Positions 7,548-60,580 of a stretch of DNA of 64,000 nt are shown here, piece after piece. Numbering within the stretch: position 1 is the stretch's first letter; each line of letters begins with the position of its first letter. Below the pieces are notes generated by a model. It searched no databases and was not told the DNA's origin. It saw only the letters and a program-made list of their open reading frames with translations. A program made the position numbers and the translations under genes. This DNA comes from Armatimonadota bacterium (GTDB lineage: Bacteria > Armatimonadota > HRBIN16): positions 1,030,839-1,094,838 of the forward strand of contig BPGT01000001.1 of the NCBI GenBank assembly GCA_026003175.1. The letters run 5' to 3'.

Positions 7548-7574
7548 CCGTTATTCGCGGAACAATCCCTAGTT

Positions 7575-7761
7575 GAGGGTGTTCGAAATTGCTGGTTGAA
7601 TGGATAGATAACCTAACCCCCTTGCCCCCCTTCCCTGCAAGGGAAGGGGGAACGCCCCTCTCCTCGTAGGAGAGGGGACGGGGGTGAGGTAAGGCAGGGA
7701 TAGCAAGAACGCCTCTCTCCTTGCGCTACAACCAACTTCTCAACAATTCTCGAACACCCTC
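7575..7761 (+). mobile_element. MITE copy 1 (187 bp), abutting the ffh promoter
   Basis: The ends are GAGGGTGTTCGA and TCGAACACCCTC, a perfect 12-bp inverted repeat that continues imperfectly to about 21 bp. Direct duplications of TCCCTAGTT flank it at 7566-7574 and 7762-7770. Inside are two strong palindromes: 11-bp arms around GCA (7626-7650) and 10-bp arms around CGT (7655-7677). It has no coding capacity. The right duplication ends at 7770, which is the first T of the ffh -35 box. Confidence 0.9.
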
Positions 7762-7769
7762 TCCCTAGT

Positions 7770-7798
7770 TTGACAAGTTTTGCACGCAGGTGTATACT
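7770..7798 (+). promoter_or_regulatory. Promoter of the ffh-trmD operon
   Basis: Perfect TTGACA (7770-7775), 17-base spacer, TATACT (7793-7798). The MITE duplication supplies the first T of the -35, so the box itself was left intact by the insertion. Confidence 0.8.
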
Positions 7799-7829: not shown

Positions 7830-9170
7830 TTGTTTGAAAGCCTGACGGAAAAACTGCAGAAGGTCTTTCGGCGACTGAGCAATCAGGGCAAGGTCACCGA
7901 GCAGGATGTGAACGAAGCCCTGCGTGAGGTGCGCATCGCCCTGCTGGAAGCGGATGTGCACTTCAAGGTAGTGAAGGACTTTATCGCGCGTGTGCGCGAG
8001 CGTGCCATCGGACAAGAGGTGCTCGAAAGCCTCACCGCTACCCAGCAGGTCATCAAAATCGTGCACGAAGAGCTGGTCAGCCTGCTCGGCGACGGGGCAG
8101 AAGGCATCCGTTTCGCGCCCAAGCCTCCCACTGTCATCCTGTTGTGCGGTCTGCAGGGTTCCGGCAAAACCACCACCGCCGCCAAACTCGCGCTGTGGCT
8201 GCGCAAACAGGGGCGGCGACCGCTGCTGGTAGCGGCGGATGTACATCGTCCGGCAGCGGTACAGCAGCTGAAGGTGCTGGGACAGAACCTGCAGATACCG
8301 GTTTTTGCTATAGACAACAGCAAGGACGCGGTGCGCATCGCCCACGAGGCGTTACAATACGCCGTCCAACAGGGCAACGACGTGGTGATTCTGGATACCG
8401 CCGGAAGGCTGCACATTGACAGCGAGATGATGGAAGAGGTACGCCGCGTCAAGGAAGCTACCCAGCCCAATGAGATTCTGCTGGTGCTGGACGCCATGAC
8501 CGGTCAGGACGCAGTGCGCGTCGCAGAGGAGTTCCACCGTCAGCTGGAGGTAGATGGTTTTATCCTGACCAAGCTGGACGGCGACACACGCGGCGGTGCA
8601 GCAATATCCATTCGTGCCGTCGTAGGCAAGCCCATCAAGTTCGTCGGCGTGGGCGAGAAGCCCGATGCGCTGGATGCGTTCCACCCCGACCGCATGGCGG
8701 GGCGCATTCTGGGCATGGGCGATGTGCTCACGCTTATCGAAAAGGCACAGCAGACCTTTGACCAGAAACAGGTAGAGGAACTGCAGCGCAAACTACGCCA
8801 GAACCAGTTCGACCTGAACGATTTCCTGATGCAGATGCGCCAGATGCAGCAGATGGGACCGCTGGACCAATTGCTGAAGATGATACCCGGTCTGGGTGCA
8901 CAGTTCAAGGACGTACAGATAGACCCGAAAGAGTTAAAGCGTGTGGAAGCCATCATCCTTTCGATGACGCCGGAGGAACGCGCCAACCCGCATATCATCA
9001 ACGCCAGCCGAAAACGGCGCATCGCGCGGGGTAGCGGCACCTCGGTGCATGAAGTGAACGAGCTGCTGTCACAGTTTGAAGAGATGCGCCATATGATCCG
9101 AGAGCTAAACGCCTTGCAGTCCGGAGGAGGCAAAGGCAAGCGCAAGATACGCCTGCCTTTCTTCGGATAA
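7830..9170 (+). CDS. ffh: Signal recognition particle protein Ffh (SRP54 GTPase)
   Basis: The protein has 446 residues, the usual length. Domains: N-terminal four-helix bundle (1-90), GTPase with P-loop GLQGSGKTT (107-115), DTAGRLH and TKLDGDTRGGAA, then the methionine-rich M domain (LMQMRQMQQMGP) with the RNA-binding SGTSVHEVNELL segment. Ffh binds signal sequences of nascent membrane proteins and 4.5S RNA and docks with FtsY. The start is TTG at 7830, just after CGGCGGAAG; no in-frame ATG fits the conserved N-terminus (FESLTEKLQKVF). It is the first gene of a conserved translation operon. Confidence 0.98.
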   Translation: MFESLTEKLQKVFRRLSNQGKVTEQDVNEALREVRIALLEADVHFKVVKDFIARVRERAIGQEVLESLTATQQVIKIVHEELVSLLGDGAEGIRFAPKPPTVILLCGLQGSGKTTTAAKLALWLRKQGRRPLLVAADVHRPAAVQQLKVLGQNLQIPVFAIDNSKDAVRIAHEALQYAVQQGNDVVILDTAGRLHIDSEMMEEVRRVKEATQPNEILLVLDAMTGQDAVRVAEEFHRQLEVDGFILTKLDGDTRGGAAISIRAVVGKPIKFVGVGEKPDALDAFHPDRMAGRILGMGDVLTLIEKAQQTFDQKQVEELQRKLRQNQFDLNDFLMQMRQMQQMGPLDQLLKMIPGLGAQFKDVQIDPKELKRVEAIILSMTPEERANPHIINASRKRRIARGSGTSVHEVNELLSQFEEMRHMIRELNALQSGGGKGKRKIRLPFFG

Positions 9171-52030: not shown

Positions 52031-52282
52031 GCTGCTAGTTTGTCAAGTATGATGCTTGAGGGTGTTCGAAATTGCTGGTTGAATGGATAGATAACCTAAC
52101 CCCCTTGCCCCCTTCCCTGCAAGGGAAGGGGAACGCCCTTCTCCTCGCAGGAGAGGGGACGGGGGTGAGGTAAGGCAGGGATAGCAAGAACGCCTCTCTC
52201 CTTGCGCTACAACCAACTTCTCAACAATTCTCGAACACCCTCAGTATGATGCTTACTATCCCCTGGAGGGCGAGGCTCCTGC
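52031..52282 (+). repeat. Dispersed repeat split by MITE copy 2
   Basis: CTGCTAGTTTGTCAAGTATG on the left and ACTATCCCCTGGAGGGCGAG on the right rebuild the repeat seen intact at 48188-48245. Confidence 0.65.
52058..52242 (+). mobile_element. MITE copy 2 (185 bp)
   Basis: Same ends as the other copies (GAGGGTGTTCGA / TCGAACACCCTC). The duplication is AGTATGATGCTT, 12 bp, at 52046-52057 and 52243-52254. On the minus strand the left duplication ends on the first T of TTGACA (plus positions 52041-52046). No -10 box follows that hexamer, so here the target is the hexamer inside another repeat. Confidence 0.9.
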
Positions 52283-53624: not shown

Positions 53625-53696
53625 CGTCGCGAACTTCCCTCCTGTTATCGAGAAAATTCATCGGCGGATGGGGTCAATCCTGCCCCTGCCAACGGT

Positions 53697-53882
53697 GAGG
53701 GTGTTCGAGAATTGTTGAGAAGTTGGTTGTAGCGCAAGGAGAGAGGCGTTCTTGCTATCCCTGCCTTATCTCACCCCCGTCCCCTCTCCTGCGAGGAGAG
53801 GGGCGTTCCCCCTTCCCTTGCAGGGAAGGGGGCAAGGGGGTTAGGTTATCTATCCATTCAACCAGCAATTTCGAACACCCTC
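53697..53882 (-). mobile_element. MITE copy 3 (186 bp), reversed, abutting a promoter
   Basis: Present in the opposite orientation to copies 1, 2 and 4. Duplications GCCAACGGT at 53688-53696 and 53883-53891. The right one ends on the first T of the -35 box TTGCCT. Confidence 0.9.
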
Positions 53883-53890
53883 GCCAACGG

Positions 53891-53919
53891 TTGCCTTTTT
53901 CAGTCGCCGGTGCTACAAT
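53891..53919 (+). promoter_or_regulatory. Promoter of the dockerin-tailed protein gene
   Basis: TTGCCT (53891-53896), 17 bases, TACAAT (53914-53919). The -35 begins inside the MITE target duplication. Confidence 0.65.
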
Positions 53920-53969: not shown

Positions 53970-55127
53970 ATGCAACGCGCAAGGTTCCTTTCCGTACCCC
54001 TGCTGGCGGGGGTACTGGCGGCTGCCGTCGCCGCGCAAACGTTCCCCATCACCGACTTTGAGGCGTTCCCCGCGCCCTCCAGCAACGGCTCGGTGATGTT
54101 CCGCCAGCCCAGCTTCTCGGGATCTACAAGCAGCTTTATCGACACTACCGTAAATACCTCTCAGGTGGTCACCGACCAAGCTTACAGCGGCGCCAAATCG
54201 TTACGGGTGAACTGGCAGTTCCTCCCGGATAAGCCTACTGCCTGGCTGAGGCTGACTACCTTCAACACCGCTAACCTCGGAAATCCTGCCATTGACTTCG
54301 CACATGCTCTGCGTTTCAAAATCTACGTTGCCAGTGGAACACCGGATATTTACATCACACTGGGTGTGCGTGAGACCAACACGACAGCGCCGATCGGCGG
54401 CAACGGAGGAGCATCCGGCGGTATTGAGTGGATTGGAGCCTCCCAGGTTGACGCGGGTAATGTGCGGCCTGTTGGCAAGCTGCTTACCGCTAAGGACCAG
54501 TGGGTAGAAGTGGTGTTTAACATTCCCGCAGAGCCGGTTCTGCCTTTTGCTGGAGCCAGCGCGAACGGAGTGCTGGACGTGCCTCGCGGCACCCTCGAGT
54601 GCCTCGCCTTCACGCCGGTAGAAGCGGGGGCAGTGGGTCCCTATCGGATTTACCTGGACGACTTCGAGCAGGTAGCGGTGTGGTCCATCTCTGGCAACGT
54701 GGAGCTGCGCGATTTCGACGGGGACATTACGCAGGTGCCGGTGACGGTGGAATTGCGACAGGACGGCAACGTGGTGCGCACCGCCACGGTGAACCTGGAT
54801 TCCAGCGGCAACTACACCATCCCTGCTGTGCTGCCCGGCACGTATGACCTTGCCTTCAAAGCCAGCCACTGGCTGCGCACGGTGGTGACGGGCGTGACGG
54901 TGGAAGACGCTGATGTGACCGACGTCAACGTGTCGCTCACTAACGGAGACATCGACGGCGATAACGAGGTAACGTTGTTCGACTTCGGCAATCTGGTTGC
55001 TGCCTTCGGCAGTATGCCGGGCGACAGTAACTGGAACCCAGACGCCGACCTGGACGGGGATCTGGAGGTCACCCTGTTCGACTTCGGCGTGCTGGTGCGC
55101 AACTTCGGCGCGATTGGGGATGAGTAG
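53970..55127 (+). CDS. Secreted protein with dockerin-like C-terminal EF-hand tail
   Basis: A 385-residue protein with a signal peptide (LLAGVLAAAVAAQ). A jelly-roll carbohydrate-binding-like domain (about 25-235, ending IYLDDFEQV) precedes a beta-sandwich (ISGNVELRDFDGDITQVPVTVELR). The tail has two EF-hand-like loops (DIDGDNEVTLFDFG, DLDGDLEVTLFDFG) and the end NFGAIGDE, nearly the same as the tail of the subtilase at 11577-15885. No enzyme motif is seen. The tail probably serves surface attachment; no cohesin partner is in the window. Confidence 0.8.
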   Translation: MQRARFLSVPLLAGVLAAAVAAQTFPITDFEAFPAPSSNGSVMFRQPSFSGSTSSFIDTTVNTSQVVTDQAYSGAKSLRVNWQFLPDKPTAWLRLTTFNTANLGNPAIDFAHALRFKIYVASGTPDIYITLGVRETNTTAPIGGNGGASGGIEWIGASQVDAGNVRPVGKLLTAKDQWVEVVFNIPAEPVLPFAGASANGVLDVPRGTLECLAFTPVEAGAVGPYRIYLDDFEQVAVWSISGNVELRDFDGDITQVPVTVELRQDGNVVRTATVNLDSSGNYTIPAVLPGTYDLAFKASHWLRTVVTGVTVEDADVTDVNVSLTNGDIDGDNEVTLFDFGNLVAAFGSMPGDSNWNPDADLDGDLEVTLFDFGVLVRNFGAIGDE

Positions 55128-60257: not shown

Positions 60258-60333
60258 TGGCGCCCTCGGAGGGATTCGAACCCCCGACGCCCTCCTTAGG
60301 ACGGAGGCGCTCTGTCCACTGAGCTACGAGGGC
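60258..60333 (-). tRNA. tRNA-Arg (anticodon CCU)
   Basis: A cloverleaf of 76 bases with encoded CCA. Acceptor stem GCCCTCG/CGAGGGC with discriminator G; D-arm TAGCTCAGTGGACAGAGC; anticodon stem CCTCC/GGAGG around loop GTCCTAA (anticodon CCT in DNA); T-arm with GGTTCGAATCC. It reads AGG codons. Confidence 0.96.
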
Positions 60334-60347
60334 GCGTCCGCACCATT

Positions 60348-60376
60348 AGTGTAACACGATTCAGAGGCGGTGTCAA
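60348..60376 (-). promoter_or_regulatory. Promoter of tRNA-Arg
   Basis: On the minus strand: TTGACA (60376-60371), 17 bases, TACACT (60353-60348), 15 bases before the tRNA 5' end. The first T of the -35 lies in the MITE target duplication. Confidence 0.75.
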
Positions 60377-60384
60377 CCCGCCGA

Positions 60385-60570
60385 GAGGGTGTTCGAAATT
60401 GCTGGTTGAATGGATAGATAACCTAACCCCCTTGCCCCCTTCCCTGCAAGGGAAGGGGGAACGCCCCTCTCCTCGCAGGAGAGGGGACGGGGGTGAGGTA
60501 AGGCAGGGATAGCAAGAACGCCTCTCTCCTTGCGCTACAACCAACTTCTCAACAATTCTCGAACACCCTC
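60385..60570 (+). mobile_element. MITE copy 4 (186 bp), between divergent promoters
   Basis: Ends as in the other copies. Duplications ACCCGCCGA at 60376-60384 and 60571-60579. The left one ends, read on the minus strand, on the first T of the tRNA-Arg -35. The right end lies 10 bases from the TTGCCT -35 of the DUF187 gene. Confidence 0.9.
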
Positions 60571-60580
60571 ACCCGCCGAT

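Follow-up and report, generated by a model that had tools for sequence, protein, structure and literature searches.

Why should a short repeat lie, copy after copy, directly against what appear to be promoters, and how do those promoters outlast the insertion? The question is raised by a 186-bp element with four copies in the window, the whole 64,000-nucleotide stretch of Armatimonadota DNA analysed here. An earlier note on this DNA had proposed that the element chooses its target by the -35 hexamer itself, or by the RNA polymerase or sigma factor bound there. We therefore examined the junctions of the four copies, of their relatives throughout the genome, and of related elements in other genomes.

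Four insertions in the window

Rechecking the junctions showed that all four copies are placed as the earlier note had described, with one target site duplication (TSD) ending on the first T of a -35-like hexamer (Table 1), and that a -10 (TATACT, TACAAT or TACACT) follows at 17 bp in three of the four. The note had also taken each hexamer to belong to a promoter. This stands, as a prediction, for copies 1, 3 and 4, where a -10 is present, but not for copy 2, where a -10 was sought and none found. Lacking a -10 and facing back into a neighbouring MucB/RseB-like gene at its 3' end, the copy 2 TTGACA is probably not a promoter.

At ffh, the empty site in sister species (L292, L294, L296, L298) carries the same promoter (TTTGACAAG...TATACT) without the element, so the promoter is older than the insertion. 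The claim that the promoter survives was thus upheld, since the TSD restores the first T, and with it an intact -35 hexamer.

Table 1. Features of the four MITE insertions in the window
Feature	Position	Strand	Details
MITE copy 1	7575..7761	+	187 bp; terminal inverted repeat (TIR) GAGGGTGTTCGA
TSD of copy 1, left copy	7566..7574	+	TCCCTAGTT, 9 bp
TSD of copy 1, right copy	7762..7770	+	final T is first T of -35
-35 TTGACA, predicted ffh promoter	7770..7775	+	conserved at empty sites of sister species
-10 TATACT, predicted ffh promoter	7793..7798	+	spacer 17
ffh / SRP54	7830..9170	+	446 aa; gene downstream of copy 1
MITE copy 2	52058..52242	+	185 bp
TSD of copy 2, left	52046..52057	+	AGTATGATGCTT, 12 bp
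TSD of copy 2, right	52243-52254		
TTGACA at TSD edge, copy 2	52041..52046	-	no -10 found; points into end of neighbouring gene
MITE copy 3	53697..53882	-	186 bp
TSD of copy 3, left	53688-53696		GCCAACGGT, 9 bp
TSD of copy 3, right	53883..53891	+	
-35 TTGCCT (predicted), copy 3	53891..53896	+	
-10 TACAAT (predicted), copy 3	53914..53919	+	spacer 17; upstream of ORF 53970-55127
MITE copy 4	60385..60570	+	186 bp
TSD of copy 4, left	60376..60384	+	ACCCGCCGA, 9 bp
TSD of copy 4, right	60571-60579		
-35 TTGACA, predicted tRNA-Arg promoter, copy 4	60371..60376	-	
-10 TACACT, predicted tRNA-Arg promoter, copy 4	60348..60353	-	spacer 17
tRNA-Arg (CCT)	60258..60333	-	gene downstream of copy 4

The junction across the genome

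The genome of the window (4.1 Mb, 7 contigs) holds about 100 copies of the element, judging by searches with both of its ends, which gave about 100 matches each. Fetching and pairing the flanks of nearly all of them yielded 105 distinct records, of which 103 represent complete elements. Exactly 186 bp is the length of 93 copies, 50 are identical to the consensus and the mean is 1.2 differences from it; because the copies are nearly identical, they point to a recent spread.

The earlier note had suggested comparing the flanks of all genomic copies. Carried out on the roughly 100 copies, this comparison bore out the base-exact junction: among the 76 whose TSD is exact and 9 bp or longer (range 9-12 bp), 59 have an exact TTGAC beginning on the last base of the TSD, against a control frequency at other offsets of 0.12% per position. 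The rest comprise five that match at 4/5 bases, six that lie directly against another such element and six others, two of which still look promoter-like by eye (L007, whose apparent 10-bp TSD has TTGACA at offset 8, and L009, with TTGCGA and a good -10). With targets admitted at a match of at least 4/5, the logo reads T95 T100 G100 A96 C100, followed by A65/T30. Either end of the element may face the promoter while the geometry stays constant, as had been claimed, with the element upstream of the -35 and the TSD between them. The left end does so more often than the right (51 vs 29, p 0.018, all promoter-side targets of this genome, G000).

TSDs are mostly 9 bp long, and some are 10, 11 or 12. 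Since the junction on the -35 side is fixed and the far-side junction alone shifts with TSD length, the -35 is the anchor of the insertion. A near-identical promoter has been hit at three places (L006 1502, L007 1502 and L047 3087); the TSDs there are 9 and 10 bp long and the element lies either way round, so these are separate insertion events at one target sequence. That targeting is site-directed we regard, on these junctions, as near certain.

The targets as promoters

Applying one -10 test (at least 4/6 matches, spacer 16-18) to every exact TTGAC in the fetched DNA, we found a -10 at 65 of 73 targets (89%), compared with 37 of 112 intergenic TTGACs (33%; odds ratio 16, Fisher p 8e-15) and 29 of 589 coding ones (5%; Fisher p 1e-57). 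The spacing at targets is almost always 17 or 18, in about equal measure. The -10 is absent at the other eight exact-TTGAC targets, and about 10% of targets, window copy 2 among them, are TTGACs without a recognisable -10. Shuffling the downstream segments lowers the rate from 89% to 22%, so AT-richness is insufficient as the sole cause of the excess.

The promoters at the targets are sequence predictions. The next predicted gene runs in the same direction at 66 of 80 targets, mostly within 150 bp, on a crude longest-ORF set of gene calls under which 21 of 81 targets also fall within an ORF. Of the strong consensus promoter matches listed in the genome, about a fifth (22/98) carry an element. 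The ratio of exact to near TTGAC is 73:7 at targets and 11:11 at unoccupied promoters with a strong -10 in the fetched DNA, a comparison with few unoccupied promoters and with loci chosen around insertions, and hence subject to sampling bias and possible chance matches.

The element and its mobiliser

The repeat is under 500 bp, encodes no transposase, is flanked by TSDs and is present in high copy number, and the first 12 bp of its TIR are common to an autonomous insertion sequence (IS) of 1,012 bp in the same genome. By these sequence features it is best described as a non-autonomous element (MITE) of that IS. The IS occurs between or beside MITEs in four near-identical copies that have the same end motif and an intact frame of about 320 aa; derivatives of 989 bp with a broken frame are also present. 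Most IS copies examined obey the target rule of the MITE; the fit is unclear for one, at C2:990699 (TGGACT and no -10). The IS probably mobilises the MITE in trans, because the two share their ends and their target rule. The core of the MITE (window 7613-7693) is a hairpin-rich repeat with many stand-alone homologues across the genus (G001-G009), which the MITE seems to have captured.

The transposase has a DDE_Tnp_1 domain (PF01609, 3.1e-7, above cut-off), and D123, D202 and E260, invariant in a four-row alignment, would by analogy form the catalytic triad. It matches IS4_1 weakly, and is 31% identical to the transposase of ISAae1 over 292 aa. On this homology, together with the TIRs and the 9-bp TSD, and because its score against the NCBIfam IS5 equivalog NF033579 is 39 bits (cut-off 140), we file the IS as a DDE element distantly related to ISAae1 (itself annotated IS5-like) and not as a standard IS5 member. 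Structure prediction from four sequences gave a pLDDT of 34.

Relatives in other genomes

Two relatives within the genus are 78% and 57% identical by alignment and a third 63% by the search table; they insert at T|TGAC, the most distant one at T|TGAT. The target rule holds in genomes G006, G009, G003, G174 and G182, the last two from a second family of the phylum. In G182, 31 of 56 fetched TIR ends have a TTGAC 6-11 bases beyond them (30 of these are listed with -10s), as do 14 of 25 in G174; about half would be expected were each element to have a promoter facing one of its ends. Among elements bearing TSDs in the other genomes, together with a few IS copies of the window's own genome, 17 of 19 fit the rule at 4/5 or better.

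Some elements in these two genomes have TTGAC at both ends and differing flanks (L231, L237, L263, L265 and L266 in G182; L165/L279 in G174), and may represent divergent promoters or recombinants. A run of C (CCCCTTGACA) precedes the -35 at G182 and G174 targets (L231-L290) and in the few element-free promoters, and is possibly a trait of the host's promoters.

A single-sequence search of genome contigs for relatives gave no matches; an alignment-based search of genome contigs recovered Fimbriimonadales relatives, the closest named being metagenome assemblies such as KatS3mg016. None were found among viral contigs and phages, and a search of plasmids for further ISAae1-like copies found none. 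Homologues on Thermus plasmids are about 30% identical and have 9-bp TSDs. In one of these (L173) a TTGAC beside the TSD was looked for and none seen, so the Thermus homologues do not clearly follow the rule.

How the target may be chosen

Taken together, the T|TGAC anchoring, the -10 at 17 or 18 and the same rule in relatives support the original proposal of target choice by the -35 sequence, by bound polymerase or sigma, or by both, and this is the sole reading that fits the genome-wide data. As to which cue dominates, the evidence suggests both. In the mechanism we propose, the downstream cut would separate the first two bases of the -35 hexamer (T|TGAC) and the other would fall 9-12 bp upstream, the duplication then rebuilding the hexamer and leaving the element just upstream of an intact sigma-A promoter. 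The transposase itself would read TTGAC(A/T), because host promoters nearby show the motif in a less strict form and because it is kept at the few targets without a -10. A second, promoter-specific cue, for which sigma-A/RNA polymerase or a recent binding by it is the likeliest candidate, would recruit or license the transposase, since random TTGACs are largely ignored. We consider this combination of a site-directed transposase with a promoter-specific helper probable; that the helper is sigma or RNA polymerase we infer from the sequence pattern. Against it stand the eight exact-TTGAC targets without a -10 and the position of the cut: the -35 is the binding site of sigma region 4 and the T|TGAC cut is at its edge, so transposase and sigma might compete for it.

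Alternatively, the transposase could read DNA alone, recognising TTGAC(A/T) along with helical, melting or sequence properties of the -10 region, with no part played by polymerase or sigma. The near-invariance of TTGAC and its retention at targets without a -10 are in keeping with this, and the absence of G at base 6 (0/73 targets vs 16/76 unoccupied strong promoter matches, a sample that is biased and may include chance matches) suggests direct reading of bases. However, some 23 bp separate the -10 from the cut, and spacings of 17 and 18 are about equally common; both points fit sigma/RNA polymerase better than they fit a compact transposase of about 320 aa. Moreover, composition alone yields the 22% of the shuffled segments and not 89%. 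We therefore hold a DNA-only mechanism to be rather unlikely, though it is a serious contender.

Selection after insertion offers another route to the same pattern: with a loose preference for TTGAC, only harmless insertions upstream of promoters might survive. Insertions within genes would indeed be lost, and the 589 coding TTGACs in the fetched DNA are free of them. Yet purging leaves unexplained the excess of targets with a -10 over intergenic, non-promoter TTGACs, where insertion would be equally harmless. By that excess purging alone is ruled out, and a loose preference combined with purging is improbable.

It could also be supposed that the host benefits, the hairpin-rich element insulating or tuning promoters and being kept by positive selection. 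The strong fold of the MITE (-96.6 kcal/mol, z -7.25) and its position just upstream of the -35 would suit such a role, but base-exact junctions are not expected from it, the near-identical copies speak of recent spread, and the same rule governs the IS, whose interior is different; we think it very improbable. That the promoter is carried or made by the element, or that the two spread together by recombination, can be set aside even though IS ends often provide a -35 (PMC9330008), for here neither the -35 nor the -10 is part of the element and both vary from site to site, and at ffh the empty sites of sister species, which already have the promoter, refute the idea.

Comparison with known systems

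ISAae1, from plasmid ece1 of Aquifex aeolicus, resembles the IS in its TIR (GAGCCTGTTGAAAAAATC), its 9-bp TSD and its transposase. Its plasmid copy (L172 1404-2411) has T|TTACA, 16 bp and TATACT in the geometry of the MITE targets. It differs in that there is one copy, the -35-like sequence is TTTACA in place of TTGACA, and we found no targeting rule described for it; as a single site, this promoter-like target is only a lead.

In yeast, the element Ty3 is guided by TFIIIB to sites 2-3 bp upstream of Pol III genes (PMC8632968). Like the MITE and IS, it inserts harmlessly and to nearly the exact base at promoters, in a fixed position relative to them. Ty3, however, is an LTR retrotransposon, and its host factor is proven where that of the MITE and IS is inferred. 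The resemblance is one of behaviour, not ancestry. Whether the DDE transposase finds its targets by contacting sigma-A/RNA polymerase and cuts at a fixed base of the -35, as an independently evolved counterpart of Ty3 and TFIIIB, is in our judgement evenly balanced.

Among bacterial elements, ISPsy8, ISPa11, ISPpu9/10 and others insert into REP sequences (PMC1525189) and likewise show a tight preference for a recurring intergenic motif, but their target is a palindromic repeat and not a promoter. IS231A and the IS4 family share TSDs of about 10 bp, and some members have conserved target arms, although promoters are unmentioned in that account (PMC2266710). In hybrid promoters, the IS end supplies the -35 (PMC9330008); such ISs also adjoin promoter elements but in the opposite geometry, whereas at MITE and IS targets the whole promoter is host-owned and intact. 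We found no bacterial precedent for a promoter-homing IS in the open-access papers searched, an absence that is weak evidence. The kind of element is thus known, and its target choice is the new part.

If the proposed targeting is correct, bacterial transposons, like yeast Ty elements, would use landmarks of the transcription machinery as safe harbours. The MITE and IS would then be a directly testable system for target recognition by a transposase, their insertions would map sigma-A promoters naturally in bacteria that are uncultured, and the transposase might become a tool for placing DNA immediately upstream of promoters.

Compound and tandem copies

A unit of MITE-TCGAGCTCT-IS recurs with differing outer flanks (L003 1501-2685, L022 1502-2709, L070 3062-4246), and in L003 the 9-bp flanks on its two outer sides agree, which would suit joint movement of the pair in the manner of a compound transposon. 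Tandems of two MITEs separated by 9 bp occur at L034 3000-3400, L042 3000-3410, L079 3030-3420 and L086 3080-3475. Some of their inner spacers match the TSD of another locus: the L034 spacer is the L042 TSD, with GGTAAACCT as the outer flank on both sides, which suggests that MITE dimers can transpose as a single unit. Tandems with the same 9-bp spacer may reflect repeated hits on one target, or slippage, and were for that reason left out of the evidence. At L041 3060-3820, four MITEs form an array at a spacing of about 185 bp with their ends fused (AGATGGTTCGAAATTG).
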